The notes under the pieces are model-generated. The model saw only the letters and a list, made by a program, of their open reading frames with translations, was not told where the DNA came from and did not search any database. This document shows positions 1 to 61,040 of a stretch of 61,040 bases of DNA, piece after piece. Positions within the stretch are counted from its first letter, which is position 1; each line of letters opens with the position of its first letter. The translations under genes were made by a program, and so were the position numbers. Origin of the DNA: a virus; the IMG/VR virus record IMGVR_UViG_3300033233_000042, positions 1-61,040 of that record. One strand, written 5' to 3'.

Positions 1-96
1 AACAGCTACCCCGCCCATTCCGATAGCTTCTACTGTATCCACAAAAGAAGGAGTAAATTTCTCTGTGACATGATCCTTTATGAATAAAGCGTCCAT
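1..96 (-). CDS. Large ejection/internal virion protein, N-terminal 32 codons only (copy A)
   Basis: Partial gene cut by the window edge. The start ATG complements bases 94-96, and the encoded residues match the first residues of the 1300-residue protein at 37,245-41,147 (MDALFIKDHVTEKF). A GGGAAAG ribosome site lies just upstream, and the gene begins 10 bases after the stop of the 537-residue gene. The role is inherited from the full copy: a giant T7 gp16-like candidate ejection protein. Confidence 0.85.
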   Translation of the reverse strand, partial: MDALFIKDHVTEKFTPSFVDTVEAIGMGGVAV

Positions 97-106
97 GTTA
101 CTTTCC

Positions 107-1720
107 CTACTCTATGACTGTATATTTCGGATCCTCTAGCATCTTGTTAATGGCACCCCAGAGAGTCTTATCATTTGTGTTCTCCACAGCCTTAGTGGCT
201 ACTTCTTGTAATTGATCCATGATCTTCCTAGCTTCCGCATAGTTTCCCTTGACAATCTGTTCTTCTAGTTGTCTCTTTAGCTCAAGGAACGACTTATAGT
301 ATCCTACATCAACTTTCTTTTCTTTTCTGGGCATACTAGGAACCCTGATACCATACACAGAACCAAGCAGGGCAGCTTGTCTCCTGAGTTCTTCTGCCTT
401 CTTACTGTCGGTCTTTTCTACTTCGTCCGCTTGTCTATATAACTGATCTATCTCTTCTGCAGCCCTAGCTTTTACATCAACATGCCTTTCCCAGGCATCA
501 CCACCGCTTCTTACGACTTTCCTAGCAGCCATCATAGCGTCATGTAACATTCTCGTGTTGAATTTGAGCCACTCCAGCTTGTTCTGCTCTAACATCTTAA
601 GATTCATTAGTTTTTCCTGGTGTGAAAGCGTCATATCTTTCAATATCGCATCCCGATCGTTTCTCAGCTTTTCCAAGAGGATGTCTCCATGCAGCTTTGC
701 CTTCTCTAACTCGAATTTGAATCGCTCCAGTTGGCGCTTATATTCTTCTTCGTCCATCTCCTTCCACTGCTTCATAACACTTGGTAGAGCGCTAGTAAAC
801 CCAAGAACAGAAGTCCCACCCATACCAATTGCAGCAAGACCTGTAATAGCAATCGCAAGATTTCTGAAGAGTTCATTCTTCTTTGTTTCATCCTTGATCT
901 CATAGTTTATGAGCGGCTTATACACCTCCAGTAGCTTATCGTATATTTTGTTGGACATATCCACATACTTGCTCATTAAGTCTGCCAGCTTAACATCCGC
1001 CTCTTCTGCTTTCTTTTTGTATTCCTCTATGTTCCCTTTGAACAACTCATTGATAGCACTAACTGTAGATTGCTCGATGATGGAGGGGCTTTCTCCTCCG
1101 AGAGCGGTTGCAAGTTTCTCATGCGTGCTGGACAAGGGGGAAGTGGAAAGCTTAGGTTCAGGGCTAGGCTTAGGGATCTTACCTGTTACTACGCTTTTTC
1201 CCTTACTTACTCTTGGTGCAAAACCTCCGGTTTCATCTACAATAGGAGTGTCTTTACCAACAAGCTTTACCAGCTCCCCTAGAACCTCTTTTTCCGCATC
1301 CGAAAGTCTACCTCCAGAAGCTTCAGTGGCCATAGAATAGGCATTTGCGAAGGATTCCATAGTATATGGGAACCCGCCATATTTCATTACTTCGAGCGCC
1401 TTCTTTACTTTCTCCTCGTTAAGCTTAGACATCAACTCCTGAACTTTGGCGCTTACATCTACCTCTTGCTTCTGCTCCTGTTGCTCTTGCTTTTGCTCTT
1501 GCCGCTTGGTCTCACTAGGGGATTGAGCAGGTTTACCAAACAGTTTCTGTAGGCCATCGTCTACAAAGGATAGAGATTTCCTAACGATCTCCGCTACTGT
1601 TCCGTAAGCATCCTGGGCACCAGGCTTGGGAATTTTCCCTGTTACTACCGTCTTCCGGTCATCGTCTTTAGGAACTGCCCCTACTACTACTGCATCCCCA
1701 ATAATTCCTTCCAAAGACAT
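107..1720 (-). CDS. Candidate internal virion/ejection protein, 537 aa (copy A)
   Basis: Seen: a long helical protein with a Gln/Glu/Lys-rich low-complexity patch at about residues 65-88. A central Gly/Ala hydrophobic stretch (about 285-315) is flanked by long charged helices likely to be coiled coils. The short segment VVTGKIPKP occurs twice (near residues 25 and 177). The start ATG follows AGGAGGG. Context: it sits between a 200-residue membrane-anchored protein and the 1300-residue protein, the position of gp15 between gp14 and gp16 in T7. The ejection role is inferred from order and size only. The B homologue is 542 aa. Confidence 0.7.
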   Translation of the reverse strand: MSLEGIIGDAVVVGAVPKDDDRKTVVTGKIPKPGAQDAYGTVAEIVRKSLSFVDDGLQKLFGKPAQSPSETKRQEQKQEQQEQKQEVDVSAKVQELMSKLNEEKVKKALEVMKYGGFPYTMESFANAYSMATEASGGRLSDAEKEVLGELVKLVGKDTPIVDETGGFAPRVSKGKSVVTGKIPKPSPEPKLSTSPLSSTHEKLATALGGESPSIIEQSTVSAINELFKGNIEEYKKKAEEADVKLADLMSKYVDMSNKIYDKLLEVYKPLINYEIKDETKKNELFRNLAIAITGLAAIGMGGTSVLGFTSALPSVMKQWKEMDEEEYKRQLERFKFELEKAKLHGDILLEKLRNDRDAILKDMTLSHQEKLMNLKMLEQNKLEWLKFNTRMLHDAMMAARKVVRSGGDAWERHVDVKARAAEEIDQLYRQADEVEKTDSKKAEELRRQAALLGSVYGIRVPSMPRKEKKVDVGYYKSFLELKRQLEEQIVKGNYAEARKIMDQLQEVATKAVENTNDKTLWGAINKMLEDPKYTVIE

Positions 1721-1729
1721 GACACCCTC

Positions 1730-2332
1730 CTATGCGCCCCAAGCTGTCTTTTGCCAGTCTTCCCAGGCTTTGCTCAGACTAGAAAATCCACTAGATAGAC
1801 CCTGCATAGCTCCAGATGTGGTTGCAGCTGTTGCCTGAGTTCCAGCAAGATACCCTTGCGTAGCGGTTCCGTAGGCCTGCAGTTCCCTGGTCAAAATATC
1901 AATATCCGCTTCTGCTAGCCCCTGCTGACTAAGAGCTGTCTTTAGCTGTTGATTCAGAAGATCATAATAAGTGTTCTGATACCATCTGTCCAACTCAGCC
2001 TTCGCCTGCAAAGCTACGGAGGAATTAGCTAACCCCCTAGCACTAAGATTGGACATGACCTGCTCATACTTCTGTCTATATGCTTCATCTAGCATGTTCT
2101 TATACTGAGGTAACAACTGTCCAGCACGATACTGCTCTAGAGCCTGGGCTATATTCTGTCTGGCTTGCTCAGAGAGACCACTGATAGAAGGGAGTCTAGC
2201 CCGGATTTGACTGAAGACCTCCCTTGGAATTTTCGGGCTAGGAGGCTTCGGAGCGTTTATAAGCCCATAAATAGACGTCCCTATTGCTGTTAAACCTGCT
2301 ATTGCTGTAATTATTGGTGCTACTGCCGCCAT
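1730..2332 (-). CDS. Candidate internal virion protein, 200 aa, T7 gp14-like in position (copy A)
   Basis: Seen: a hydrophobic N-terminal segment (about residues 4-24, Ala/Ile-rich) is followed by Gln/Ala-rich helices. The start ATG has GGAGGATAAGCC upstream. T7 gp14 is of similar size with a membrane-active N terminus and lies before gp15/gp16; the same order appears here. Function is inferred from synteny, not from recognised motifs. It is nearly identical to the B copy at 42,787-43,389. Confidence 0.65.
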   Translation of the reverse strand: MAAVAPIITAIAGLTAIGTSIYGLINAPKPPSPKIPREVFSQIRARLPSISGLSEQARQNIAQALEQYRAGQLLPQYKNMLDEAYRQKYEQVMSNLSARGLANSSVALQAKAELDRWYQNTYYDLLNQQLKTALSQQGLAEADIDILTRELQAYGTATQGYLAGTQATAATTSGAMQGLSSGFSSLSKAWEDWQKTAWGA

Positions 2333-2335
2333 GGC

Positions 2336-2848
2336 TTATCCTCCATACCATTTTCTAAACTGCTCTTCTATGTCAAACCCTTGTATTCCAAGTTCGGCCA
2401 TAGATCTATTGATACCCTCTTTCCATTCCTGCCACGACTTCTGTATATTACTAAAGTCGAGGTGAGAGCCAAATCTCCTGGATCCTTCTGTCGCAAGCTT
2501 AAATGTTTGATAAGCCTCCGGAGAACTGACGGTAGAAGCAATCTCTTGCGCAACAGGAGCTGTTCTCTGTTGATATGATTGTATATTCTTCTGCAAAGAA
2601 GACTGGAAGAAATCCCTAAGATTACTATAATCTCCGATTGCTCCCGTGGTTTGTGTTCTCTCTCCGTATGTCAACGCCTTCTGGAAGGCAGGACTTACCT
2701 TTTCACTATACTGCTTCATTAGAGCGCTCATTACCGTAGTATACAGATCAGAAGCAACATTGGGCGATGGACTAGAGGAGGAAATTCTCTGCATGAACTC
2801 CTGATATTCCTTCTGCCACTGTGGTATATGTGGTTTTCTCGCTCCCAT
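2336..2848 (-). CDS. Unknown virion-module protein, 170 aa (copy A)
   Basis: Not recognised. The protein is hydrophilic and probably helical, rich in Ser/Gln/Tyr, and ends FRKWYGG. The start ATG has a very strong AAGGAGGATAAGAA site even though it lies 77 bases inside the end of the upstream 136-residue gene in another frame. The same 77-base overlap is kept in copy B, which supports both reading frames. It lies in the ejection-protein cluster. Confidence 0.75.
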   Translation of the reverse strand: MGARKPHIPQWQKEYQEFMQRISSSSPSPNVASDLYTTVMSALMKQYSEKVSPAFQKALTYGERTQTTGAIGDYSNLRDFFQSSLQKNIQSYQQRTAPVAQEIASTVSSPEAYQTFKLATEGSRRFGSHLDFSNIQKSWQEWKEGINRSMAELGIQGFDIEEQFRKWYGG

Positions 2849-3182
2849 TTCTTATCCTCCTTAAGACCCATTTTCTGGCTTTGCTGTCCCAGTAGAGTAG
2901 ATGAGTAAACATTTCTTTCCCTAACCTAAGAAGGGACAGCACGTCTTTTATATCTTTTATACTTCCCCAGAAATGATATACTAGTCCCACTTCGCCTTCA
3001 AGTCTTAAGTCGTCTAGATAAAAATCCTGCGTTTCAACTATCCTTTTTGCGGTCTCTAGATCTGTTCTGCAGTAGACAACAAGAAAATCCCTATGGGCGA
3101 AGTAGAGACCGTTCTTAAGCATAGCATCAATTAACTCGAAGATTATCTTGTTCTGTTCTAGATGATATAGATACCTTTCCAC
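2772..3182 (-). CDS. Unknown late protein, 136 aa, GTG start (copy A)
   Basis: Not recognised. The GTG start at 3182 is preceded by AGGAGGTTAAAGG, and the same codon and site are used in copy B. The protein is mixed alpha/beta with a basic segment (RKWVLRRI) near residue 105. It overlaps the upstream 207-residue gene by 56 bases and the downstream gene by 77. In position and length it resembles T7 gp13 (138 aa), but I see no sequence signature and do not assign that function. Confidence 0.75.
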   Translation of the reverse strand: MERYLYHLEQNKIIFELIDAMLKNGLYFAHRDFLVVYCRTDLETAKRIVETQDFYLDDLRLEGEVGLVYHFWGSIKDIKDVLSLLRLGKEMFTHLLYWDSKARKWVLRRIRNGSEKTTYTTVAEGISGVHAENFLL

Positions 3183-3750
3183 CCTTTAACCTCCTGAATT
3201 GCTCAGCTAAACAATCATATTGCAATACAAAGAACTTATGGATATCATCGCTAGTTAGAAAAGAACAAGCTCTATAAACCACCAACATTTTATAGACTTC
3301 TGGGATAAGATCATCTTTCTCTTCTTCATCGCTCTCTTTCTCAAATCGCTTAAACCATGGTAAGTAAACAACATCTAGAACGCCTTTGTAGATCCCAGCT
3401 GGAATCAAAATAATTCTGCCACCTTCTAGCCGATATCCACACGGATATATCTCTCTATCAAACAATCCCTTGCGCACTTCCGCTTGTATCCCCGGGGTAT
3501 CCAGCAACTTAACCCTTACGTCAGGAAACTGATAAGACGTAAAATAGACTCTCTTGGGAATACCTACAAAGCCGTCCACACCCCATCCATTTACCACGAA
3601 GGAACAACCATCATACAACTCCATGTCGCTCGCAACCCACAGTCTGGCAGAATTGATTGCTTCCACTAACCTGATTTCATCTATGCCCAGTTCTCGTGGT
3701 TCAATAAATACCCTAATACTTCTCAGATAATCACCAAGCCTAACTGACAT
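3127..3750 (-). CDS. Tail adaptor-like protein, 207 aa (copy A)
   Basis: Seen: the architecture resembles the other adaptor at 6,127-6,747. It has an opening helix (LGDYLRSIRVFIEPRE), an INSARLWVASD helix, a beta-rich middle and a closing helical part with LIPEVYKMLVVYRACSFL. Such short proteins form head-tail or nozzle adaptor rings in podoviruses. The start ATG follows GGAGGAATACA. An acidic run (ESDEEEKDD) lies near residue 145. The adaptor role is inferred from the paired architecture and its place after the nozzle gene. Confidence 0.6.
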   Translation of the reverse strand: MSVRLGDYLRSIRVFIEPRELGIDEIRLVEAINSARLWVASDMELYDGCSFVVNGWGVDGFVGIPKRVYFTSYQFPDVRVKLLDTPGIQAEVRKGLFDREIYPCGYRLEGGRIILIPAGIYKGVLDVVYLPWFKRFEKESDEEEKDDLIPEVYKMLVVYRACSFLTSDDIHKFFVLQYDCLAEQFRRLKGGKVSISSRTEQDNLRVN

Positions 3751-4114
3751 TGTATTCCTCCGATAACTGTTGAAACACTGCGTCTATATCCTGATGCATT
3801 ATATATTCTACCATCTTAAGTTGCTCAAAGGAACCAGCAGGTAAAATCTTTGGTATAAAGATAACAGGAACAGGAAGAGACGCTAGAACAGAATGTAACG
3901 TATCGTTCAAGAACTGATGAAACTGAAGATTGATCTGTATGAACTCTCTCTGATCTCTTACTTCTCTTAATATAAGCTCGAAAGGAAGAATTGTTGGGAC
4001 ATTCAGATTCAGAGAGCGAATGATCGCATTCGTAGTCTCAACAAAGCCAATATGATCTTGCGTAGCATTCTCAATAAATTTAAGCTCATCATCCTCTATC
4101 TTGACCCTAACCAT
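3740..4114 (-). CDS. Unknown tail-module protein, 124 aa (copy A)
   Basis: Not recognised. A helical protein with an acidic N terminus and a Leu/Pro-rich middle. It overlaps the stop of the 675-residue nozzle gene by 19 bases and the start of the following adaptor by 11, so translation is probably coupled; its own ribosome site is weak. It is conserved in B (127 aa with a slightly longer C terminus). Confidence 0.7.
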   Translation of the reverse strand: MVRVKIEDDELKFIENATQDHIGFVETTNAIIRSLNLNVPTILPFELILREVRDQREFIQINLQFHQFLNDTLHSVLASLPVPVIFIPKILPAGSFEQLKMVEYIMHQDIDAVFQQLSEEYNVS

Positions 4115-6123
4115 GCTGGAGTCTGCCCATAGAAGTAGTTGATTTCTCCAAGCAGAGTAAGCTTCATTTTGATAAAGTGAACATACATAAACACATCAGA
4201 ATCCTCCGAGAGCTCTAACCAGAGGTAAACGCCTTTCTTTTGCAGTGCAGGTTTATATCCAACCAGGTCAGTGTAGTATTGGACGAGCCTTTCAAAGACA
4301 TACTCATCATCGAATCCGACCTTTATTGGACAGGCCACATTAGTCTTTATGAGTATCTCTCGTATATATTTGTATCTCTTGATGCCGAGATCAAACGGAC
4401 ATAATCTGACTGTCATCGGATAATACGTAGTCTGACTGAACATCACATGTAATGCCACAGTCCCTGTTTGGCCAGGATATGGATATCCGACTAGAGAGCA
4501 ATTCTCGCCGTTGGGATTTGTGAAACTTCGTATTGCCCGAAAAGGAAGCTGAAACCATACGTCATATTCTATGCAGTAACAGAGCGTAAGGTCATTATAT
4601 CTATACGGAATAGCTAGACAATTCTTATCCTCAAACATAAACGTTCCAGCTTTGAAATGATCTAATAACGGAACCTGATCTGCAACAAGATTATCTATCC
4701 GCTCCAATGTATTCGTCCTGAGCTTGTATATTCCAGTTTTATCCACAAGGAAGATCAGGTCTCGTATCACCATTAGAGTCGAGTTAGAAAACGGCATCAG
4801 AATACCCGTGTCCAGGAGGTAAAAACTGGAAGGAATATTCGATGCCACACTAGCAGAGAGAATGAATAGGTTGCCGTCTGTGAACACATAAAGCATATCG
4901 TTGATGACGTAGAGCCAGCTTATCCAAGAGACCGTTGGATGTGTAATAAGTATATATCCCCCACCCTCGGTAGAAAGAAAAACATCCTTTGGTGGAGTCC
5001 CAGAAGTCCAAGCAAGACCACCGGTGTCAGCAAGCGTGGTAGATGTTGTTTCTACATATTGCCCCTCTCCGCCGCTTGTCGTCCCTCTCCAGACACGATA
5101 TTTAACAGCGCCAGACGGAGCATCCCACGTTAAAACAACTGTCCCGTTCTCTACGAAATTGGCATTCACCCAAGTGAGAGTTCCATTATCTACAAGAGAT
5201 GTTCCTGTGACGTCTACATACTGATTCTCCTGCCCAGCTGATGTTCCTCTCCACACTCTGTATCTAGATACACCTTCGACAGGAGACCAAGAGAGAGTCA
5301 CTGTCTTATTTGTGTTATCGGTCGTAGCAGATACTTCATTTGTAGCTCTATGAACATTATTTGCATCATCTAGGGAAGAGACACGGTAGTAATACGTCCC
5401 TGCCGCAAGATTCCCGCCAGCAGAAGCCAGTATAGTTAAATTTGTAGGGGCGACGTATATCGTAGCCTTAACTTCCACGCTGAGTCCTGTCCACCCACCA
5501 TCGCCGGCACTAGCAGAGATCTTATAATAATAGGTTCCTGTTAAATTGCCTCCAGAGGCATAATTTACCTTGGGATTTTGGGGAACCGTAGTATTGGTAG
5601 CAAAGTTTGTCTTGCTTACATCCTGAAAATCTACCGAGGAAAAGTAGAGCGTTTTACCATTGGCCACAAAGAGGCGACCTCGATAGACGCAAGCTCTATC
5701 ACCATTTGCAGTGTTGTATGTTGAAAGAAGAGTTCCATCTCGTTTAAATCTATAAATCTTGCTATTGGTAGTAACAAAAAAGAGCAGGTCATCATATCCA
5801 CCTGCCCACTGAACATCCTCATCTACCGTCACCTTAATAGACGTCTTGTTAACTGTATCTACAACCTCGCAGGACTTACCGAGCCAGAGATAAGCATACC
5901 TTCCATCGTTGTTGAACCCATTCAGAGCACCAAAAGAAGAAGTGAAGAAGGCGGTGCTCTTAGGAACTTTCTTCCACCCGAGCTTGAGGTCTGGCATGGC
6001 CGTGAGTTTCTGGCACATCCCAGGTTTGGTTGTGGCATCTCCAACATTAGTTGCCAATCCCAGGATGTGGAAGTCTTGTTCAACATTTTGAACAATCTCG
6101 CTCTGCTTCCTTCGCTTAGCCAT
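4096..6123 (-). CDS. Tail nozzle/tubular protein with fibronectin-III-like repeats, 675 aa (copy A)
   Basis: Seen: a beta-rich protein in three parts. A propeller-like N-terminal region (about 1-190) is followed by two or three repeats around residues 195-375 with YYYRVSSLD and SRYRVWRGT patterns typical of fibronectin type III-like strands, then a beta-rich C terminus. Size and position right after an adaptor match T7 gp12 (tail tubular protein B). The repeats diverge most between copies A and B while both flanks are highly conserved. Nozzle assignment is by family pattern and order; no enzyme motif was seen. Confidence 0.75.
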   Translation of the reverse strand: MAKRRKQSEIVQNVEQDFHILGLATNVGDATTKPGMCQKLTAMPDLKLGWKKVPKSTAFFTSSFGALNGFNNDGRYAYLWLGKSCEVVDTVNKTSIKVTVDEDVQWAGGYDDLLFFVTTNSKIYRFKRDGTLLSTYNTANGDRACVYRGRLFVANGKTLYFSSVDFQDVSKTNFATNTTVPQNPKVNYASGGNLTGTYYYKISASAGDGGWTGLSVEVKATIYVAPTNLTILASAGGNLAAGTYYYRVSSLDDANNVHRATNEVSATTDNTNKTVTLSWSPVEGVSRYRVWRGTSAGQENQYVDVTGTSLVDNGTLTWVNANFVENGTVVLTWDAPSGAVKYRVWRGTTSGGEGQYVETTSTTLADTGGLAWTSGTPPKDVFLSTEGGGYILITHPTVSWISWLYVINDMLYVFTDGNLFILSASVASNIPSSFYLLDTGILMPFSNSTLMVIRDLIFLVDKTGIYKLRTNTLERIDNLVADQVPLLDHFKAGTFMFEDKNCLAIPYRYNDLTLCYCIEYDVWFQLPFRAIRSFTNPNGENCSLVGYPYPGQTGTVALHVMFSQTTYYPMTVRLCPFDLGIKRYKYIREILIKTNVACPIKVGFDDEYVFERLVQYYTDLVGYKPALQKKGVYLWLELSEDSDVFMYVHFIKMKLTLLGEINYFYGQTPAWLGSR

Positions 6124-6126
6124 GTC

Positions 6127-6747
6127 CTAGCCTCTCGCTCGAACACTTCTGAAAAGCTCCATCTTCCACTGGTTATTAAAGAACTCTGCCAGAGTGAACT
6201 GCATATCATTCATAGCAAGCATATAAGCCATACGGAGAGCAACACAATCTAACAACTCGTCTGGGATAAGATCCTCCTGATCATAGAGATTATACATTTG
6301 ACTGACCAAAGGCGTATAGAGTATGTCGATATACTCATTCTCTTGGTGATTCCAGGTAGACGGAACAATAGATACTGTCTTCTCGACTTGATCGTATATA
6401 TACCCAATCGGTTCTACATCCTTTATAACATCGTCATAAGTAACCTGATCTAGCTTCTTAACATAGTTCCTATCCGGATTCACATAATACACACGCCACA
6501 CCCTAGAGATATTAGTAAGAGGGGCGTTACCAAGAATATACCAGGTGGTATAGAGATTCCATGTAGGACGGTCAAACCACCTAGCATATTTGTTAACGGA
6601 AGAATGCGTGCTCTTCTTGAGGCAAAAATTATCCGCTACATCCTGTCTGGCTTTATTGAGGATTCTATACAAAAGAGGTGATTCATCGTAGGCGACAGGA
6701 TAAAAATCAAACAGCCTACGGAAATAATCAGCCGCCGTTAGGCTCAT
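6127..6747 (-). CDS. Tail adaptor (T7 gp11-like), 206 aa (copy A)
   Basis: Seen: an N-terminal helix YFRRLFDFYP, LLYRILNKARQDVADNF, a beta middle containing DRPTWNLYTTWY, and C-terminal helices with LIPDELLDCVALRMAYML. This is the usual layout of phage adaptor/gatekeeper proteins. The ATGA overlap with the upstream gene implies translational coupling. The motif W-x-DRPxWxxYTTW(W/Y) also occurs in the unrelated protein at 15,063-15,665. Confidence 0.75.
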   Translation of the reverse strand: MSLTAADYFRRLFDFYPVAYDESPLLYRILNKARQDVADNFCLKKSTHSSVNKYARWFDRPTWNLYTTWYILGNAPLTNISRVWRVYYVNPDRNYVKKLDQVTYDDVIKDVEPIGYIYDQVEKTVSIVPSTWNHQENEYIDILYTPLVSQMYNLYDQEDLIPDELLDCVALRMAYMLAMNDMQFTLAEFFNNQWKMELFRSVRARG

Positions 6748-7061
6748 GCCTTCCTAGTCCGTCTCTCTATTACCTTTCCTGTCTCAAACTGCAAACCCTT
6801 TAAGTAATCAATAGTCACAATATTGACTTTATCTGCATCTGGATCGTCCTTAAGCTCTTTCATTACAGCAGGCTCAAACTTCAAGAACTCGAGCCTCTTT
6901 CTGCATACGTCGTAATGATGATCGTCGGTAGCCCCATAGCCCAGGAACTCCACACAGAGAGCATCTGGGACTACCGTGTCTGCATTTGGGTCTAATTCGT
7001 ATATCTTCCCATCCGTTCTATCAAAGAGGATGAGCCTCCTGTCCTGATTCTTAACTATCAT
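6744..7061 (-). CDS. Unknown head-tail region protein, 105 aa (copy A)
   Basis: Not recognised. A short mixed-charge protein with an RRLILFDRTDGK opening and a basic end (ERRTRKA). I chose ATG 7061, because GAGGAG lies seven bases upstream of it; a TTG two codons earlier would be too close. It lies between capsid and adaptor genes, so a head-completion role is possible but unproven. Confidence 0.75.
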   Translation of the reverse strand: MIVKNQDRRLILFDRTDGKIYELDPNADTVVPDALCVEFLGYGATDDHHYDVCRKRLEFLKFEPAVMKELKDDPDADKVNIVTIDYLKGLQFETGKVIERRTRKA

Positions 7062-7076
7062 GCCCAATCTCCTCTG

Positions 7077-8141
7077 TTAGAGGTTCATGCTAGGAACACC
7101 CTTAATCACCAAATGCGCCTTTGGACGCTCAGACCACAACTGACCACCAATCAAGAACACGCTCAGCCAAGAGAGTTTAGCATTGATATACTCTGGTTGC
7201 CATTCGGTCGTGTAGAAGCTGAACGGGCTAGCAAAAGTGAAGTGGATATTGTTCAGATTAAGATAAATGATATCGCCAACATAGTTACCGCCACCAGCAT
7301 CGTATGGGCTAAGATAAGGATCCGGAAAGACCGGGACACCACCAACAATAACACCCTTCACGGTATGCTCTCTTACCTCGGTAATCTCTGCTACATGCCC
7401 GACATTGTATCTCTCAAGCGGAGTAAAGGACTCGATAATCTTTTGGAATGTAGCATAGTCAGTAAATCCACAAGAAGGCAAACCGAATATGTTCCCAACA
7501 TTTTTCATGTATTTGTTCACGCCTCTCTCAATACCCTGGTAGACGTTGGAAGCGTTGCCAAGATCGGTAGCATATGAATATTGAGTCCCAACCCACCAGG
7601 TATAAGTTGTCCTGTCTAGCTCACCAAATACACCAGAAATTCCAACCACATCGAGAATACCGTAAAACTCTTTGTCGTTTGTTCTGGATCTAATAAGATC
7701 GTTCGTAAGCTTTGCAAAGGTCTGAAGTCCGATATCGCTTACCTTAATTGCTAACTCATTTACAACCTTGTTTGGAGAGTCCGCTTGGGCAATCTCGAAC
7801 TCGTTCAATCTGATGGTATTGCCCATCACAGCAGGTTCAAAGATGGCATTTATTGTTTCTGCATTGAAATCGTTGATCGTAAAGTTACCGCTGGTATCGA
7901 GATACTGTGGGCTAGGAGAGCTGAGGTCAGGATAGACCGGCTGAACAATAAAAGCAGCCTGGAACGGTCTCTGATCCGCTCTCTCAAGGATAAGTCTCAC
8001 CATCGGTGAGATCTTAGGAAGATTCTGTGCCACTGCATAGGCAATAAAGTTTCTCCTAGTTGTGTCTAAGAAGCGTTTAAGCTGTGAAGAGTCTTGAAAA
8101 ACTCCACCGGTTAAGAACGGAATATTTACTGTCGTTGCCAT
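7077..8141 (-). CDS. Major capsid protein, 354 aa (copy A)
   Basis: Seen: the gene follows a scaffold-like gene and precedes head-tail genes, and its length and beta-rich composition suit an HK97-fold capsid subunit. N-terminal residues about 10-40 are helical, and the C terminus has aromatic strands (EYINAKLSWLSVF). It is the best-conserved structural protein between copies, with about 12 substitutions, mostly I/V, D/E or N/S. The ribosome site is GGGAGGTAATAGAGAG. Identity as capsid is inferred from order, size and conservation. Confidence 0.85.
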   Translation of the reverse strand: MATTVNIPFLTGGVFQDSSQLKRFLDTTRRNFIAYAVAQNLPKISPMVRLILERADQRPFQAAFIVQPVYPDLSSPSPQYLDTSGNFTINDFNAETINAIFEPAVMGNTIRLNEFEIAQADSPNKVVNELAIKVSDIGLQTFAKLTNDLIRSRTNDKEFYGILDVVGISGVFGELDRTTYTWWVGTQYSYATDLGNASNVYQGIERGVNKYMKNVGNIFGLPSCGFTDYATFQKIIESFTPLERYNVGHVAEITEVREHTVKGVIVGGVPVFPDPYLSPYDAGGGNYVGDIIYLNLNNIHFTFASPFSFYTTEWQPEYINAKLSWLSVFLIGGQLWSERPKAHLVIKGVPSMNL

Positions 8142-8150
8142 CTCTCTCTA

Positions 8151-8639
8151 TTACCTCCCTAACATTGATAATACATCTTCCATGAGCTTGTCCTTCCCAT
8201 CAATGCCAGAGTATCTCTTTATTACATCATCATCTTGTCTAGCACGAATGGGAAGGCTATTTCTCGATTTTTGAAGTCTTTCGCTCACATACAAACGAAC
8301 AGCCGTCTCGAAATTGATGATTCCGTTCTGCTTAGCAAAATCCAGAACATCTTGGAAATCGTCTCTAGAGAGACCATAACTCTCGAGAACCTTGATAAAC
8401 TGTTCTTCCTTTCGAGCCTTCTCCTGTTCCTCCAATTTCCTTTTTAGATTATCAATCTCTCCATCATACTGTTCCTTTATTCGCTTGACCTCTTTTTCAT
8501 ACGGAGGTTCAGGTAAGCTTATACCGAACTTATCCAGGAGGGTCTTCAAATGCGGACGAAGATCGGGATCCTCGTAGGCGCTCCTGATAAACTCCTGTAT
8601 CTCCCGCAATTGCTGTTCTGGAGCTTTCGTATCTTCCAT
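8151..8639 (-). CDS. Scaffolding protein, 162 aa (copy A)
   Basis: Seen: a highly charged helical protein with a long Lys/Glu coiled-coil segment at about residues 50-85 and a C-terminal helix ending EDVLSMLGR. It lies directly upstream of the capsid gene and downstream of the portal cluster. Short, charged coiled-coil proteins in this slot are scaffolds in podoviruses. The start follows GTAGGAGTAGGTT. The B copy has the same length. Confidence 0.8.
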   Translation of the reverse strand: MEDTKAPEQQLREIQEFIRSAYEDPDLRPHLKTLLDKFGISLPEPPYEKEVKRIKEQYDGEIDNLKRKLEEQEKARKEEQFIKVLESYGLSRDDFQDVLDFAKQNGIINFETAVRLYVSERLQKSRNSLPIRARQDDDVIKRYSGIDGKDKLMEDVLSMLGR

Positions 8640-8648
8640 AACCTACTC

Positions 8649-8819
8649 CTACTTGCTTTGAGCAACAGGTTTGTCTATCTTAATGTTCTTCCTATACTTA
8701 CTAAACAGCCCATCATTGGGCTCGCTATTTCGGGGATTATATCCCCAGTAATCACCCGTTACATACCCGCTGTATTTTCCTGGGTTAATTTTCTGAGTCC
8801 CTTTGCCTTTAGTAGCCAT
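8649..8819 (-). CDS. Small conserved protein, 56 aa (copy A)
   Basis: A short gene starting at ATG 8819 after AGGAGGATAAC and ending at TAG 8649. The product starts MATKGKGTQKINPGKYSGYV and is basic, Gly/Tyr/Asn-rich and probably unstructured. The B copy (49,702-49,872) has the same length and almost the same residues, so the gene is real. Function unknown; it lies between a Pro-rich protein and the scaffold. Confidence 0.8.
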   Translation of the reverse strand: MATKGKGTQKINPGKYSGYVTGDYWGYNPRNSEPNDGLFSKYRKNIKIDKPVAQSK

Positions 8820-8829
8820 GTTATCCTCC

Positions 8830-9165
8830 TTACATTCCTATTGGCGTTGCACCAGCACCAGGCGGTGGAGTCGGTGTTGGCGTAGACCCTCCAGGTGGGA
8901 TTCCACCCGCCCCAGGAGGCATGCCAGCCTGGGCACCTTGCACAGCCTGTGCCGCCTTTGCTAATTTCTGATCCGCATCCGGCACTACCTTACTGAGTTT
9001 CTTAAGACAATCTAGGCAGACCTGCCCTTTCTCGGAGGTAGAAGAATAGATGCCGAGAGCCTCTTCTAACCCTTTGATGCACATAGCCACCACTATGTCG
9101 GCATATTCTTCCATCCCGATTGGGCCTCCAGTTGCTCCCATCTGTGGTGCCATTTCTCCATTCAT
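8830..9165 (-). CDS. Unknown head-module protein with Pro/Gly-rich tail, 111 aa (copy A)
   Basis: Seen: an N-terminal helical part (about 1-75) with Cys residues in a CLDCLKK stretch, then a Pro/Gly/Thr-rich tail (about 76-111). The tail differs in sequence and length from copy B while the helical part is nearly unchanged. The start ATG follows AGGAGGATGAT. Not recognised; its place upstream of the scaffold suggests a head-assembly or decoration role. Confidence 0.75.
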   Translation of the reverse strand: MNGEMAPQMGATGGPIGMEEYADIVVAMCIKGLEEALGIYSSTSEKGQVCLDCLKKLSKVVPDADQKLAKAAQAVQGAQAGMPPGAGGIPPGGSTPTPTPPPGAGATPIGM

Positions 9166-9180
9166 ATCATCCTCCTATTC

Positions 9181-9312
9181 TGGGGGAGAGAACTAACTAC
9201 TAGACGTATATGTGCTCGCTACTTGCGAGCTTTGCGTCGTGCTTTACGTCTAGTCCTTCTGGCCATCTACTATTCCTCCTTATCTCAACCATATAGTTAG
9301 TTCTCTCCCCCA
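9181..9312 (-). promoter_or_regulatory. Nested stem-loop enclosing a micro-ORF (copy A)
   Basis: Seen: a perfect 19-bp inverted repeat (9,181-9,199 with 9,294-9,312). Inside it is a second stem, 9,199-9,208 with 9,245-9,254, and a third, GCTCGC-TACTT-GCGAGC at 9,214-9,230. The 15-codon ORF and its ribosome site lie inside. Copy B keeps the outer and innermost stems but builds the middle stem from different sequence. It sits between the fibre cassette and the head cassette, suggesting an RNA control or processing element. Confidence 0.75.
9219..9266 (-). CDS. Arginine-rich micropeptide, 15 aa (copy A)
   Basis: ATG 9266 follows an excellent AAGGAGGAATAGTAG site and reads MARRTRRKARRKARK to TAG at 9219. 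The product would be almost entirely Arg/Lys, able to bind nucleic acid. Copy B has an equal-length ORF with one Lys/Arg exchange and silent changes, and the same type of ribosome site. Coding is supported by this conservation but not proven; it could equally be a leader peptide whose translation opens the surrounding stem-loop. Confidence 0.6.
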   Translation of the reverse strand: MARRTRRKARRKARK

Positions 9313-9340
9313 TACTCATAAATGCATATCATTCACAGAA

Positions 9341-9346
9341 AGTCAA
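9341..9346 (-). promoter_or_regulatory. Possible internal promoter -35 (TTGACT) ahead of the stem-loop (copy A)
   Basis: On the minus strand TTGACTTTCTGT is followed by an AT-rich stretch before the nested stem-loop. The same block occurs at 50,371-50,376 in copy B although the genes just upstream are unrelated there. No good -10 is seen at 16-18 bp, so the promoter call is weak. The conserved block may instead mark a recombination junction. Confidence 0.3.
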
Positions 9347-9354
9347 CACTTTAT

Positions 9355-10845
9355 TTAACTAACCCCGCCAATTTTCTGAATAATCTTCCCAACTGTATCA
9401 TTAAGCTCCTGAATACCCCGAGTCAGCAATGCGATCAGATCCATATAATTCAGACTTGCCTTGCCTTCCGTATCAATCGTCACAAGCTCAGGACAGACCT
9501 CAGATACATCCTGAGCAATAAAGCCAAATCGGTTGGCTTTTAATGGATCATCCACATACACGTATTTTACTGGTTTTAGACAGGAGATAACGTCCAGACA
9601 ATCAGTTTGAAGATAGTCTGATAAGGGCTGGACATCCGTTTTCAGATTTGCATCTGAGCGCTGAGTCAGTGTATCATAGTAGATACCAGAACAGGTAATA
9701 TTATAAGTGCCGAGACCGCCATACCAGCCAGAAGGAAAATCATTCTTGCTAATACCATGCACAGGATCCGGAACAATCATTGTCAGCTGACCCTCTGCAG
9801 TGCTGGTTGAGTAGGGGAATATAGCAACATACTTTCGGCCTCCACCAGTAGTTTGCAATATAAAAATATTATTGTTATCTTGTTCTAGATAGAAGCCGCC
9901 AACCCAGGTTCCATTAACAAAATAATCTAAACCAGTCATCGCATATGATGTAGTAGATACAGTATTAATTTTCAATCTCGGTTGGCTTGCACCAGTTCCA
10001 CTGAAAGTGATATTCCCACTTGTATCTACCACTACCCTATCTGTGTTATTAGTCCTGATGCTTAGGTTGTAATTGTCCACAGTTCCAATAAAAGCACTCG
10101 CTCCTGCCTGAATCCCAATGTTCCCGTTCACATGTAACTTGTATGACGGGGTCACTCCGATACCAACATTCCCATTTGTATCAATTATCACCCTATCTGT
10201 GTTATTAGTTCTTAGACTTAGTATATAGTTGTCTAGCGTCCCGATAAATGCATTCGCTCCTGCCTGAATCCCGATATTCCCGCCTACATGTAGTTTTTGA
10301 GCCGGGGAAGTAATACCAACACCGACATTACCAGATACAACATAGATCGGCGCGGCGCTAAGCTTAACATTCGCCGTATCAAACTGAACAAGCTGTCCTG
10401 TCACAGCATTAGTAGAATCCAGATGATAACCATCCAGATAATCCGCACAAAGGTTTGTTACCAAATTACTGCTGTTAACAACAAAGGGAGGGCTGGAGGT
10501 AACCTGAGAAACAAACTGTTGGGCTGTGATATTCCCTGAGCAGGTTGTATTCTGATCAGATCTCAGAAATTGACTAGGAAGGATCCCACCCAGCTTATCA
10601 GCATTTACAGCATTAGCAACCTTAATATCTGTCCAAGAGGAAGACTGAGCTATCTTTAGCGTAGTCCCATCGAACCAGAACTGGCCGTCATATGATATCG
10701 TAGGAGCAGTCGACCCGACGGTCACCACATTGCAGAGATAACTAAAATTTGCGTCCAGCATGCTAACGGGGAAACACTTAACCCCGTTTATTACCTGATA
10801 CTGATTATTGTTTATTACCTGCTGAAAGTTATATGGGACTTGCAT
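9355..10845 (-). CDS. Tail fibre with C-terminal S74 chaperone domain, 496 aa (copy A)
   Basis: Seen: an N-terminal beta-rich attachment part (about 1-130) and repeats with NVGIGVTPSYKLHVNG patterns near residues 170-280. The C-terminal intramolecular chaperone of the S74 family has SDANLKTDVQPL near residue 400, a GFIAQDV motif, and a final helix. S74 domains help trimerise fibres and are then self-cleaved. The first 130 residues match the 196-residue B protein; the rest is absent in B and replaced by other genes. This is a receptor-binding candidate. Confidence 0.85.
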   Translation of the reverse strand: MQVPYNFQQVINNNQYQVINGVKCFPVSMLDANFSYLCNVVTVGSTAPTISYDGQFWFDGTTLKIAQSSSWTDIKVANAVNADKLGGILPSQFLRSDQNTTCSGNITAQQFVSQVTSSPPFVVNSSNLVTNLCADYLDGYHLDSTNAVTGQLVQFDTANVKLSAAPIYVVSGNVGVGITSPAQKLHVGGNIGIQAGANAFIGTLDNYILSLRTNNTDRVIIDTNGNVGIGVTPSYKLHVNGNIGIQAGASAFIGTVDNYNLSIRTNNTDRVVVDTSGNITFSGTGASQPRLKINTVSTTSYAMTGLDYFVNGTWVGGFYLEQDNNNIFILQTTGGGRKYVAIFPYSTSTAEGQLTMIVPDPVHGISKNDFPSGWYGGLGTYNITCSGIYYDTLTQRSDANLKTDVQPLSDYLQTDCLDVISCLKPVKYVYVDDPLKANRFGFIAQDVSEVCPELVTIDTEGKASLNYMDLIALLTRGIQELNDTVGKIIQKIGGVS

Positions 10846-10851
10846 CCCTCA

Positions 10852-11151
10852 TTATACCCCCTCTAGAAAGTCTACAAGCCTTCCAAACGGTATTGTCGGT
10901 AAAAATGTCGCCTTCTTCTTAATCAAGCTTATCTCTTCCGAGGTTAAATCAATTACATCATCTTCACTCATAATCTTCTTCAACAACGTCCAGCACTTCA
11001 TCTTCTGCTCAATGTCCTGGGAATCATCTCTAGCAAGAGAAGCCAGGATGGCATTCCGGTAGGTTATCTCAGTATTGTCACCAGCAAAAACCATCGGTTC
11101 ACCATTCAACCCTAACATGACTTTGTCCAGATCTTCTTTCTTAAACCTCAT
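10852..11151 (-). CDS. Unknown protein between endolysin and fibre, 99 aa (copy A)
   Basis: Not recognised. A small helical protein beginning MRFKKEDLDKVMLGLNGEP. It lies immediately before a fibre gene and after the endolysin, with AGGAGGGATAAG as ribosome site. Copy B is same length and very similar even though the fibre after it differs. It may be a fibre-attachment or assembly accessory; this is a guess from position. Confidence 0.7.
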   Translation of the reverse strand: MRFKKEDLDKVMLGLNGEPMVFAGDNTEITYRNAILASLARDDSQDIEQKMKCWTLLKKIMSEDDVIDLTSEEISLIKKKATFLPTIPFGRLVDFLEGV

Positions 11152-11152
11152 C

Positions 11153-11852: not shown

Positions 11853-12090
11853 TCTGCCTTCCTCCTATCGGCCTCTTGGTTGTTAACCTCAGCACCAAAT
11901 TAACCATAGCAAACAACCCAAGCCCTATTGTTTGTATATCCTGCTGAGACGTAACGCCTCCCGTCTTATAGTCCACAACAGCAGCAATAAGAGCGGCTAT
12001 GTTGAACCATACGGTCTTACTATAATACCAGCTCTTATTATTGCCAATCTCGTGCCCAATGTCAAAAATCTCTTTAATTATTCGCCACAT
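11845..12090 (-). CDS. Holin candidate, 81 aa (copy A)
   Basis: Seen: two hydrophobic segments, about residues 25-42 (VWFNIAALIAAVV) and 52-68, with charged ends. SKTVWFN and LRLTTKRPI flank them, a pattern common in small phage holins. I chose ATG 12090, ten bases after AGGAG; an upstream TTG would sit on the ribosome site. It starts inside the end of the fibre gene. It would form the membrane pore that releases the endolysin. Confidence 0.65.
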   Translation of the reverse strand: MWRIIKEIFDIGHEIGNNKSWYYSKTVWFNIAALIAAVVDYKTGGVTSQQDIQTIGLGLFAMVNLVLRLTTKRPIGGRQNE

Positions 12091-50578: not shown

Positions 50579-51511
50579 TTATGTCGGCTGCTTGAACCCC
50601 CTGAAATTGAGTTCCCTTATAGCTGGATTGTTACTGCTAGTGACATTACTATTGACCTTTACTCTCCAATATTGATAATATCCACTTTTATTTAGATACA
50701 GATTAGTAATTACAGTTGTAAACTCCTGATTAAACGTCGCAACATCAGTAAAGTTACTTCCATCATTAGATACCTGTATAGTTATTGATGTAGGATTATA
50801 CCCATTCCCTGCACTATAAAAACCTACCACCATAACCGTATGAACAAATACAGGACTCACAAACTTATACTGAATCCACTGCGGCGAAGCACCTCCTGCA
50901 ATCCAGTAAGCTCCATAATCCTTATCAAATGCATAAAATGCATCATAGCTAGAACTACTGATACTACTTGCAGACGCCACACCTTCTGGAGCAGTGTTAG
51001 AAGTCATTTTAGGAACTTCCTTCACTGTTGAAGCATTACTGTTAATAAAAATATTCCATGCAGTCGAGTTACCTTTGATAGCATTTAACGCTGTCTGAGA
51101 CTTAATAATAATATCTATCGCTGTGGCTGACCCAGCTATGGCATACATTGCTGTAGAAGAACCGATAACAGTATTCAGAGCAGTAGAGGAATTGATAATA
51201 GCATTCATTGCCGTAGAAGACCCGGCTATAGCACTCATTGCTGCAGGAGACTTGATAACATTATTTAGAGCAGTAGAAGAACCTATTATGGCATTCATCG
51301 ATGTGGAAGAACTGACGATAGAGTTCATAGCTGTCGTATCATACAGAATATCCAAGAAAGCCACATAATAACCAAGATCCTGTAATGCTGACTCGAGACT
51401 ACTCCCATCACCCTGAGAGATCAGATTCAGCAGCTCATTTTTCTTACTCAAGACCATATCAGATAGCGATGCGCCACCTGTTGATATTCCCGATCTCTTT
51501 CTAATTGGCAT
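50579..51511 (-). CDS. Receptor-binding candidate with decapeptide repeats and discoidin-like domain, 310 aa (copy B only)
   Basis: Seen: about nine 10-residue repeats of the form SSTAMNAIIG (about residues 65-160), likely a beta-helix or trimeric shaft. A C-terminal domain (about 170-308) follows with GVASASS, AFDKDYGAYWIA, PQWIQYKF and YWRVKV, the pattern of F5/8 type C (discoidin) carbohydrate-binding domains. It has no S74 chaperone. It replaces the long C terminus of the A fibre, so it probably gives B a different surface target. Confidence 0.8.
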   Translation of the reverse strand: MPIRKRSGISTGGASLSDMVLSKKNELLNLISQGDGSSLESALQDLGYYVAFLDILYDTTAMNSIVSSSTSMNAIIGSSTALNNVIKSPAAMSAIAGSSTAMNAIINSSTALNTVIGSSTAMYAIAGSATAIDIIIKSQTALNAIKGNSTAWNIFINSNASTVKEVPKMTSNTAPEGVASASSISSSSYDAFYAFDKDYGAYWIAGGASPQWIQYKFVSPVFVHTVMVVGFYSAGNGYNPTSITIQVSNDGSNFTDVATFNQEFTTVITNLYLNKSGYYQYWRVKVNSNVTSSNNPAIRELNFRGFKQPT

Positions 51512-51524
51512 ACATCCCTCCTAA

Positions 51525-51794
51525 TTAGACTTCCCTACCATGCACAAACACATTTACAACACCAGTAGTAGATACTCTAATCACATCTCCACCATTCAGA
51601 GTCATCATAAGCGGTAAAAAACTTGTTGACCCGACCCAGTAATTATAGAACGTCGTTCCATCCCCTACCGACACAGTGAAGTTAACAGACGATCCATTGT
51701 CACTAGCAATATCCACATACACATATGCGGTCTTATTTGCTGGGCATGTGTATACGTTTGTTGTCGTATTGTTTACTTGTAATCTTGCAAGCAT
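51525..51794 (-). CDS. Small beta-rich fibre-cassette protein, 89 aa (copy B only)
   Basis: Not recognised. It begins MLARLQVNNTTTNVYTCPAN and is all-beta in composition, ending VNVFVHGREV. It is found only in B, between the fibre stub and the discoidin-like protein. It may be a tail-tip or fibre joint. Confidence 0.7.
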   Translation of the reverse strand: MLARLQVNNTTTNVYTCPANKTAYVYVDIASDNGSSVNFTVSVGDGTTFYNYWVGSTSFLPLMMTLNGGDVIRVSTTGVVNVFVHGREV

Positions 51795-51796
51795 CT

Positions 51797-52387
51797 TTAA
51801 CCTCCATAAAAAAAGCTGTAAAAAATGAGGTCACTGCTATCAAGTCCATCCAATTTATCTGCATCTAACCCGCTACCACTCCCTTGTGGACTGATAGTAT
51901 TTGGAGTCTGAGTCCCAGTATGATTTGCTCTTGCTAAGTAGTAAACTCCATGTTGCCCATCCACCATATCTGCATTCAGATTAGAAACTAGAGTGGTAGA
52001 AGAAACCACGAGAGGAGATGTTCCAGTTGTTACGGAAGAGATAAATGTATTTGCAGTAATATTACCAGAACATACCGTATTCTGATCAGAGCGCAGAAAT
52101 TGAGAAGGTAGAATCCCTCCAACCGCATCCGCATTTGCGGCATTAGCTACTCTAATATCCTTCCAAGAGGAGGATTGAGATATCTTAAGCGTAGTCCCAT
52201 CGAACCAAAATTGGCCATCTTGCGATATCGCAGGAGTCGTCGATCCGACAATCACCATATTAGACACCACATTGCAGATGTAACTAAAGTTGTCGTCCAA
52301 CATATTAACAGGGAAGCACTTAACACCATTAACTACTTGATACTGGTTATTAGCTACAATTTGCTGGAAATTGTATGGAACTTGCAT
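51797..52387 (-). CDS. Fibre attachment protein, 196 aa, lacks S74 end (copy B)
   Basis: Seen: the first 130 residues match the A fibre (MQVPYNFQQI, GQFWFDGTTL, ILPSQFLRSDQNT). It then ends with a Gly/Asp/Leu-rich segment (LDADKLDGLDSSD) in place of the beta repeats and chaperone. It is either a natural docking subunit for the B-only proteins or a shortened fibre. The clean reading frame and neighbouring replacement genes favour the first. Confidence 0.75.
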   Translation of the reverse strand: MQVPYNFQQIVANNQYQVVNGVKCFPVNMLDDNFSYICNVVSNMVIVGSTTPAISQDGQFWFDGTTLKISQSSSWKDIRVANAANADAVGGILPSQFLRSDQNTVCSGNITANTFISSVTTGTSPLVVSSTTLVSNLNADMVDGQHGVYYLARANHTGTQTPNTISPQGSGSGLDADKLDGLDSSDLIFYSFFYGG

Positions 52388-56920: not shown

Positions 56921-57738
56921 ATCCCTAGCCTCCGCTTGATTTCATCTATCTCTGCTAAGATGTCCCTGCCAGATACGAACAATCGGTCATACACATCCAC
57001 TCTTCTATAGCTAGACCCAGCATAAGGCCTACCTACAATAGCAAATTGACCAGGGAAAGAAGGCTTAGTAGAATTCGTTAGAACACCCACAAAAGAATCA
57101 TACCCCCAATTGCCACTATCCGGAACCCAATGGATAAGAGAAGAGTAATACTGCCCACTACCAGGGAGGACAATCGCCCCCTTAGAACAACCTGCGCCAT
57201 TCCCAGCGTTGAACCAGGACATATCTATACACGCTTCCACATTAGAGCGAATGAGCTTCTGAGAAAAGTAAATACCTGTCATGTAAAAATCCGAAAGGTC
57301 TATCCCGTCCTGCCAGTAGCCCATAATATGTATAGCGCAAGAGCAGGGTTTGGCCACCTCGTTTGTAGCAGTGCAGATGTGTAAACCGCAGATAAACGGA
57401 TCCGGAATTTCTGTCCTAGCAGGTTTTACACCAACTCTTGTTGTATTGGCGTCCAGCTCTAGGGCTATACATACCTTCCCACCAGCATCGGATGTGACCA
57501 CAAAATTCGCACCCCAAATATACTGCCTGCCATTGTGATCGTCTATGTCTGAAAAAATGTTTACAATGTTGTTCTTGGCTGGATTAGGAATGTTCGGATT
57601 GTCAGATGTGCGAACAAATACACCTACTGCCTGCCCTACGTCTATAGTGTTAATGTTGCTATAGACTACAACAGGATTCCCACTCAAAGAAGCACCTCCA
57701 TTATTTCCCTTTCTCCTGCTCTTTGGCTTCCTGAACAA
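56917..57738 (-). CDS. Fibre-module protein following the portal, 273 aa, TTG start (copy B)
   Basis: Homologue of 15,662-16,483 with the same TTG start and ribosome site. The final fibre-type module differs locally (SGQYYSSLIHWVPDSGNWGY) while flanks are conserved, again showing variation focused in this module. Confidence 0.7.
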   Translation of the reverse strand: MFRKPKSRRKGNNGGASLSGNPVVVYSNINTIDVGQAVGVFVRTSDNPNIPNPAKNNIVNIFSDIDDHNGRQYIWGANFVVTSDAGGKVCIALELDANTTRVGVKPARTEIPDPFICGLHICTATNEVAKPCSCAIHIMGYWQDGIDLSDFYMTGIYFSQKLIRSNVEACIDMSWFNAGNGAGCSKGAIVLPGSGQYYSSLIHWVPDSGNWGYDSFVGVLTNSTKPSFPGQFAIVGRPYAGSSYRRVDVYDRLFVSGRDILAEIDEIKRRLGM

Positions 57739-59176
57739 GTGCCGCCTCCCTCGCTCTCTGTATCATAACTTTTATCCTATCCTTATGCGGAATAGGTAGT
57801 AGCTCTATCGCTACCTCGGGCGGTATAAGACCACGTGCGTTCAGTTCTAGGACAAGCGTAGTAAAATTCTGCAAGAGAACAGGAGATGTGGTGTGGGCAT
57901 ATACCTCTACCCTGAGGGGCGTCTTTGCCAGAAGAGGAAACTTGTCTGTGCACAGGACTTTATACATGGCATACAGGGTCATTACACGTTCGATGAATTG
58001 CTCAAATTTGAGGGCACGGACAATCACTTCCGAAGATGCAAACTGAGATGCTAAGAGAGCATGTGTGTATGACCTTACATTCTTGGCGCTGTGACCAAGC
58101 ATGACTTCCGATATGCCGACTGTATCCAGGATGTTTCTCTCATACCGGTCAGACAAGGTAGAAAGAACACCTGGATCTATCTTGGGAACAACTTCTTCTA
58201 CAGCCATGTCCGGACTATCTACGAGAACTACACCAGAAGGCTTCCTTAGCTCGTTAACTACATCCTCTCTAGTTAAAAGACCCTGGAAGGACTTCAGGAT
58301 GACCGGAGGATAGGCTAATCTCTCCACCAAGGAAGGAAGCTGTTCTTCTATGTCGTTTATCCCTTCCTGTGCCGGTATGCACTGCTCGCCGTTTACAAAG
58401 CCATAGATATTGCCAGGAAGGTAAGATGGGACGTAGAAGGCGAAAGGATGATCAGATACGAATGGGGATTTGAAGTGGTCACGAATGGTATAATCTAAAC
58501 CCAGTGTGGCCACATAGCACGAACCCTCTCCTGGGTCTTTATACCAGACTTCGTAGACTTCGTAATACTCGTTCGGGTTTAAATCTGTGATGCGTGTGAG
58601 TTCGTCTGTAGAGCCTACTACATCGAAGAATCTGCTAAAGGGAGAAACTGTTCTGTCTGGAATAGATACCTTGCCGAACCGCTTTTCATACTCGTCTCTA
58701 CCCATACGGAGCACATAAACAAGAATCTGTGAGTCGTCGTCCATCTCTAGGTCGGGATAATAGAAAAGAATATCGAAAGGAAAGACTGGACGGAATTTGA
58801 CACCGTCTTTTCTAGGTTCTACACGGAGACCAATAAAACCCCAGAGCTCGCCTAGTTTGGCTAAATCATACAGAATGACATCTACACCCTCTCTGTAAAA
58901 ACCATCCTGCACCTCCTTTAGCAGAGCATCCGATACGTCTGGTTGGAGCTCAAAAATGACATTGTCAGAACGATAGATCAGAGAGGAAATTAAGTTGATA
59001 TATCTGCGAAGAACATTCTTGGAAGTTCGGATGTCTATGAATGACTCTAGGACACGTAGGTATCTATCCACTAAAGCAGGACGTCTGGATATGCAAGTGG
59101 ATACGATCTCCCGAAGCTCTTCCTCAGATTTGCGCCTGTCCTGCTTAATAAATTTCTCAGATTCCACTACCTTCAT
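57701..59176 (-). CDS. Portal protein, 491 aa (copy B)
   Basis: Homologue of 16,446-17,921; only about ten replacements are visible over 491 residues. Forms the DNA gate for packaging with the terminase at 34,341-36,116. Confidence 0.8.
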   Translation of the reverse strand: MKVVESEKFIKQDRRKSEEELREIVSTCISRRPALVDRYLRVLESFIDIRTSKNVLRRYINLISSLIYRSDNVIFELQPDVSDALLKEVQDGFYREGVDVILYDLAKLGELWGFIGLRVEPRKDGVKFRPVFPFDILFYYPDLEMDDDSQILVYVLRMGRDEYEKRFGKVSIPDRTVSPFSRFFDVVGSTDELTRITDLNPNEYYEVYEVWYKDPGEGSCYVATLGLDYTIRDHFKSPFVSDHPFAFYVPSYLPGNIYGFVNGEQCIPAQEGINDIEEQLPSLVERLAYPPVILKSFQGLLTREDVVNELRKPSGVVLVDSPDMAVEEVVPKIDPGVLSTLSDRYERNILDTVGISEVMLGHSAKNVRSYTHALLASQFASSEVIVRALKFEQFIERVMTLYAMYKVLCTDKFPLLAKTPLRVEVYAHTTSPVLLQNFTTLVLELNARGLIPPEVAIELLPIPHKDRIKVMIQRAREAALVQEAKEQEKGK

Positions 59177-60569: not shown

Positions 60570-60635
60570 CTTGACAAACCATAGTCGACTATGATGGGAA
60601 GCTAGATATTCCAAAGCCGTCTTTGGAATGTCAAG
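60570..60635. other. 18-base inverted repeat with covarying arms (NC2)
   Basis: CTTGACAAACCATAGTCG (60,570-60,587) and 60,618-60,635 pair at 14 of 18 positions around a 30-base loop. Partner of 18,962-19,027. The loop side also contains ATTCCAAAG-CCGT-CTTTGGAAT, a small perfect hairpin sharing the right arm. Confidence 0.65.
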
Positions 60636-60660
60636 AAAATGAGATCAATTTTTTTATTTT

Positions 60661-60688
60661 CTAGGGGGTAATACTTTCTTTCACGAAG
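60661..60688. other. Conserved block CTAGGGGGTAATACTTTC (NC2)
   Basis: Matches 19,052-19,080 except for one G fewer in the G-run. Unknown role. Confidence 0.5.
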
Positions 60689-60949
60689 TTAATTTCCCAA
60701 GAGAGGGAATACTAGCTAGAGGGAAGAATAGCAAATTTTCCCTTCCTAGTCAAACAAAAAGAGGGAAGTTTCCCTTCTTGGATGTTAAGGAAGATCTTCT
60801 CTTTGCTAACCAAAAGGTTGCTTTGCTAACCGATATTGCTTCCATATTGGCGAACAGGCTTTCTTCTTCGGCTAAGGGATGGATTTTTTCTTTCTGGTAG
60901 TCTTGCCTTTGCTTCCCAAAGTTTCCTTCTCTTGGCATAAACGAATAAC

Positions 60950-60978
60950 TTGACAAAAACTTGTGTCTTAGGTATAAG
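60950..60978 (+). promoter_or_regulatory. Early promoter of the next unit (P1 equivalent)
   Basis: TTGACA (60,950-60,955), 17-bp spacer, TATAAG (60,973-60,978), identical to P1 at 19,365, followed by the same leader and AAGGAGGG. Confidence 0.8.
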
Positions 60979-61031
60979 CTATATTGCGTTTAACCACAAA
61001 CTATAACTTAAACCAAAAGGAGGGTTTTAAA

Positions 61032-61040
61032 ATGGCTTTT
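61032..61040 (+). CDS. Amidoligase, first three codons only
   Basis: ATG 61032 after AAGGAGGGTTTTAAA reads Met-Ala-Phe, as at 19,447. The gene continues past the window edge, so a further early module follows. Confidence 0.7.

Follow-up and report, generated by a model that had tools for sequence, protein, structure and literature searches.

The 61,040-base IMG/VR virus record IMGVR_UViG_3300033233_000042, analysed here over its whole length (the window), very probably follows a path that an assembler took through the sequences of two or more coexisting strains, all of one phage kind. Positions 19,338-61,040 would be a whole genome of 41,585 bases that closes as a circle and consists of an early module and a late module (copy B), and positions 1-19,337 the late half of a second strain (copy A). 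The two would be joined through 118 or more bases, at the beginning of the early module, that are identical in A and B. Among the origins considered in a first-pass annotation of the window, the one with the best support is a chimeric assembly of co-existing strains: the 118-base join, the single early module, relatives that show the late module only once and the poor standing of A-B as a sister pair all argue for it.

The gene content (terminase, portal, capsid, S74-ended fibres, cell wall hydrolase, holin, RecT, D12 methyltransferase, primase-like zinc finger and UvrD-type helicase) marks the source as a tailed phage. Comparison of the window with itself revealed that copy A (1-19,455) and copy B (41,052-61,040) carry the same late genes in conserved order and direct orientation. 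The copies are 41.05-41.6 kb apart and about 83% identical at the nucleotide level, the identity being weakest at the fibre genes. The collinear matches, far above chance level, were the following:

1-9348 with 41052-50378, direct, 82.6% identity
10523-12342 with 52053-53887, direct, 82.6% identity
14221-15061 with 54891-55724, direct, 70.4% identity
15433-18239 with 56688-59494, direct, 85.3% identity
18245-18693 with 59593-60039, direct, 81.2% identity
18802-19455 with 60411-61040, direct, 84.9% identity

The offset between A and B rises along the record from 41,051 through 41,255 to 41,585. These collinear direct matches and their offsets bear out the earlier observation that the late module occurs twice, 41-41.6 kb apart.

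The modules and principal genes are located as follows:

1..19337, minus strand, late module copy A (structural, fibre, lysis and portal genes), collinear with 41052-60922 at about 83% nucleotide identity, probably from a second strain
7077..8141, minus strand, major capsid protein, copy A, 97% amino acid identity to copy B
16446..17921, minus strand, portal, copy A, 98% amino acid identity to copy B
19447..33289, plus strand, early module, single copy (amidoligase-like, glutamine amidotransferase-like, D12 adenine methyltransferase, RecT, HTH, primase-like zinc finger and UvrD-type helicase genes)
34341..36146, minus strand, terminase large subunit, single copy (PHROG 2, Pfam Terminase_6C)
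37245..41147, minus strand, 1300-aa protein, the only complete copy, its C-terminal third resembling Hydrogenobaculum phage 1
41149..59436, minus strand, late module copy B
48128..49192, minus strand, major capsid protein, copy B (PHROG 9953, E 5.6e-7)
57701..59176, minus strand, portal, copy B (PHROG 156, E 7.5e-6)

At the start of the early module (19447-20851) the amidoligase-like gene adjoins the glutamine amidotransferase-like gene. The 1300-aa protein had no match among PHROG or Pfam families.

The portal and major capsid genes are present twice and the terminase gene once. Neither the early block (19.5-33.3 kb) nor the 1300-aa gene has a second copy in the record by self-comparison. Copy A begins, at the left edge of the record, inside the first approximately 96 coding bases of a homologue of the 1300-aa gene, and its right limit is the late/early intergenic region. 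The record length corresponds to about 1.47 units of 41,585 bases. Two genomes in tandem, as first proposed, would have every module twice; the terminase, the early block and the 1300-aa gene occur once each, although the record is possibly cut short. The late half alone is doubled and the second genome is incomplete, so the tandem description fails.

The two late modules differ mainly by silent change. In the genes with more than 80% amino acid identity (4,252 codons) dN was 0.058 and dS 0.967, and the codon-position differences in the same gene set numbered 1505 at third, 358 at first and 220 at second positions. The reading frames of the late genes are open in both A and B; both modules are conserved and under purifying selection. 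The earlier description of near-identical proteins with many silent changes agrees with these dN and dS values. A simple concatemer of one repeated genome would give identical copies and is rejected by the difference of about 17% between A and B; its dismissal in the first-pass annotation is upheld by the same 83% identity.

Whole genes also differ between the copies, as had been noted before: fibre genes are strongly diverged or replaced.

9355..10845, minus strand, tail fibre with S74 chaperone end, copy A
50579..52387, minus strand, copy B counterpart of that fibre slot, an F5/8 type C (discoidin-like) fibre gene and two short genes
12074..14683, minus strand, repetitive S74-ended fibre, copy A, 869 aa
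53616..55346, minus strand, repetitive S74-ended fibre, copy B, 576 aa, 64% amino acid identity to copy A over aligned codons

In the first of these slots (9355-10845 / 50579-52387) the content is swapped and the neighbouring genes are conserved, a pattern as in receptor-gene exchange between strains. The repetitive fibres (12074-14683 / 53616-55346) have internal repeats approximately 65-80% alike, and their lengths in A and B are unequal.

The place where the two copies come together is a short exact match.

19338..19455, no strand assigned, 118-base match, first site, comprising the upstream region and the first 9 coding bases of the first early gene; the A and B paths meet here
60923..61040, no strand assigned, 118-base match, second site, at the record end; closes 19338-61040

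The first early gene was taken to start at the ATG at 19447, which was our choice. The final 118 bases of the record are exactly those at 19338-19455, the match reaches the last base, and it is the sole 118-mer common to 1-41051 and 41052-61040. Through it, 19,338-61,040 closes on itself as a circle of 41,585 bases. The first-pass annotation does not mention this match at the record end. The join lies in a stretch that is identical between its two sources (19338-19455 and 60923-61040), as expected of an assembly chimera. An identical run of at least 118 bases ended at only 1 of 15,956 aligned A/B columns. When the A/B mismatches were permuted within 300-column blocks, none of 1000 shuffles gave an identical run of 116 or longer (longest run: mean 62, maximum 98).

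A second long run, of 116 identical bases, lies inside the portal genes (17764-17879 / 59019-59134); it exceeds all 1000 shuffles and suggests recent recombination among strains. Short direct repeats of the form GAATGAC...CAGTC occur in the late/early intergenic region of both copies (18328-18419, 59668-59744) and are possible regulator or origin sites.

IMG/VR was searched for relatives by portal, terminase and capsid. The terminase relatives considered were the best 80 of 159, and copy number was counted in the nearest ten. Two of these are close: G001 (IMG/VR 3300032018_000013; 32,173 bases) and G002 (IMG/VR 3300033233_000081; 40,754 bases). G002 shares with the window the late-gene order, the terminase (93% amino acid identity), the capsid (95%) and much of the early block, but has one late module and an exact 127-base terminal repeat. 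G001 is about 90% identical in nucleotides to copy A over 2794-9757 and has early-block matches of 78-86%; unlike the window it has one late module and lacks a match to 19.5-23.9 kb, and it is an incomplete fragment. A megablast comparison with a phage collection detected no near DNA relative.

Eight distant relatives have terminases 47-52% identical to that of the window, one each, which brings the count to one terminase in every one of the ten relatives. Seven of the eight have one capsid gene; the exception is a 19,351-base record, evidently Hydrogenobaculum phage 1. One portal ORF was found in two of the eight (in two in-frame pieces each), a portal fragment in one, and none in five. A second late module, recognised by more than one capsid or portal gene, was seen in none of the ten relatives, most of which are fragments, making the counts lower bounds. 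In one distant relative (G006) the terminase frame (13173-14924) was matched across one TAG stop.

The ends were compared in four distant records: one, G007 (IMG/VR 3300032018_000009; 42,877 bases), has a terminal repeat, of 171 bases, and three have none. G002 closes on itself at 40.6 kb and G007 at 42.7 kb. Both the end of the window and, apparently, the contig ends of G002 lie in the intergenic stretch between late and early genes, which could reflect a hard-to-assemble variable region or a physical end.

The kinship of the two copies was assessed with the close relatives. By rounded nucleotide identity the nearest neighbour of copy A was an outside relative (G001 or G002) in 15 of 23 late genes and copy B in 7, with one tie; some of the gaps amount to a single point, and three genes had no G001 comparison. 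Informative sites were counted in the 18 late genes alignable in all four sequences, which omits three missing from G001 and two partly matching fibre genes. Of 782 such sites, 348 joined A with G001 and B with G002, 240 joined A with G002 and B with G001, and 194 joined A with B and G001 with G002. The fewest sites thus pair A with B (194 of 782), the result expected of separate lineages. Gene by gene the leading pairing was A-G001 in 9 of 18, A-B in 5 and A-G002 in 4, a mosaic signal. Judged from these alignments, A and B overall do not behave like copies that would have been born by duplication within one genome. Duplication within one lineage is accordingly disfavoured: overall, A-B has less support than either other pairing, despite leading in 5 of the 18 genes.

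The structure is most simply accounted for by an assembly graph in which a stem (late A) feeds a closed loop (early module and late B). The path would enter the early module from the late side of strain A, continue into the late side of strain B and halt on its return to the shared 118 bases; the left end would be the point where the strain A piece stops. The join would then be the work of the assembler, with no DNA recombination behind it. Ownership of the early module is a separate matter: recombination may have given A and B a common one, or the strain switch may lie elsewhere. One detail that does not fit a plain chimera is the left end, which is not a k-mer overlap, because it has only 18 bases identical to the sequence from 41,052 onward before the first mismatch.

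The length of the overlap also speaks against a plain chimera. Agreement with an assembler k would have been supporting, though not required, evidence, and 118 is not a standard k: it is not odd, nor is it the 127 of G002. According to a statement in the COBRA paper, contig overlaps equal maxK for metaSPAdes and MEGAHIT and maxK-1 for IDBA_UD (PMC10914622). Given these values, an overlap of 118 would call for uncommon settings, namely k 119 and an overlap of k-1. The remainder of strain A did not turn up as a contig of its own in the portal, terminase and capsid searches of IMG/VR, although the records nearest the window were perhaps not covered.

A real mixed concatemer would place the join in the cell: in a double infection, the replicating genomes of strains A and B would be linked end to end through the 118 bases they have in common, which would act as a true terminal repeat or a RecT annealing site, and the contig would sample this replicating DNA. 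We consider this improbable. The phage encodes RecT, 118 is not a usual assembler overlap, and G002 seems to have its own ends in this late/early intergenic region too; moreover, a tandem of A, early, B and early with near-identical early modules would be expected to yield the same contig. However, the repeat reaches 9 bases past the likely coding start of an early gene, an unexpected place for a physical end to fall. The 118-base stretch has only short weak matches in G001 and G002 (at most 36 bases, E 0.08 or worse), and 75 of its bases had no exact match in IMG/VR with the window's own record excluded. None of the ten relatives shows the late module twice, and assembly of the mixed form would require it to be frequent among the copies as a whole. 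A literature search, judged by titles, returned no phage work on mixed or heterologous concatemers or heterodimer prophages. That such heterologous concatemers form through a shared 118-base terminal sequence often enough to dominate the assembly is, if anything, a shade less probable still. If true, they would be a standing route by which strains swap whole late modules together with receptor fibres. Even then both fibre sets would not be expected in one virion, as 61 kb exceeds the 40.6-42.7 kb units of G002 and G007 and packaging would probably follow that of other tailed phages.

A tandem prophage pair, or a plasmid-like element with two related phages, is very unlikely. The direct orientation of the copies and their intact genes under purifying selection would suit it, but no integrase or partition family was found among 40 proteins scanned with PHROGs, a subset of the ORFs, and the outer flanks may lie beyond the record. 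Two pattern-based scans of genome contigs, reaching mainly close relatives, confirmed no terminase relative there and gave no integrated relative as a clue to the host. A genuine 61-kb phage, its single early module accompanied by two diverged late modules and its capsids or fibres mixed, is the least credible reading: both late modules are intact and conserved, but the size is about 1.5 times the unit of G002 and G007, A and B are not favoured as sisters, and copy A begins inside a gene at the record edge.

Taken as one molecule, the record would imply a phage with two receptor specificities, and the first-pass annotation had raised this possibility. It is unsupported: the second genome is incomplete, the 118-base join coincides with the record end, the relatives lack a second late module and A-B is the least supported pairing overall. 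Nothing supports a single packaged molecule carrying two receptor specificities. With the two-strain assembly as the preferred reading, the biology that remains is ordinary but useful, namely a pair of related late modules whose head genes are conserved and whose fibre genes have been replaced.

By terminase, the nearest named relative is Hydrogenobaculum phage 1 (NC_028651, 19,351 bases; Iceland), at 49% amino acid identity. Like the window it has a homologue of the 1300-aa protein (28% identity over the C-terminal third) three small genes from the terminase; unlike the window it is half the size, and NC_028651 has no capsid match. The IMG/VR record of 19,351 bases, evidently the same phage, has neither a portal nor a capsid match and may be partial. 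The two phages share a related terminase near a large-protein homologue, but not capsid and portal. Hydrogenobaculum phage 1 is stated to have been assigned to Hydrogenobaculum by CRISPR spacers (PMC7689252), and the host of the phage described here is plausibly one of the Aquificales.

Published work offers precedent for assembly artefacts of this general kind. Chimeras are stated to be usually below 5% of large contigs in simulated viromes (PMC5610896). Over-long phage contigs are known from the CheckV work, where 290 IMG/VR contigs that exceed the expected length more than twofold and repeat one genome are described as probable assembly artefacts (PMC8116208). The window resembles these contigs in being over-long, a phage unit plus more. 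The CheckV cases, as described there, repeat the same genome, whereas the copies in the window differ by about 17%; because of this difference a k-mer frequency test would probably miss it. The record is better taken as a case for caution: a chimera of diverged strains has no identical repeated k-mers and no repeat shared by its two ends, and its sign is a doubled late module beside a single terminase.
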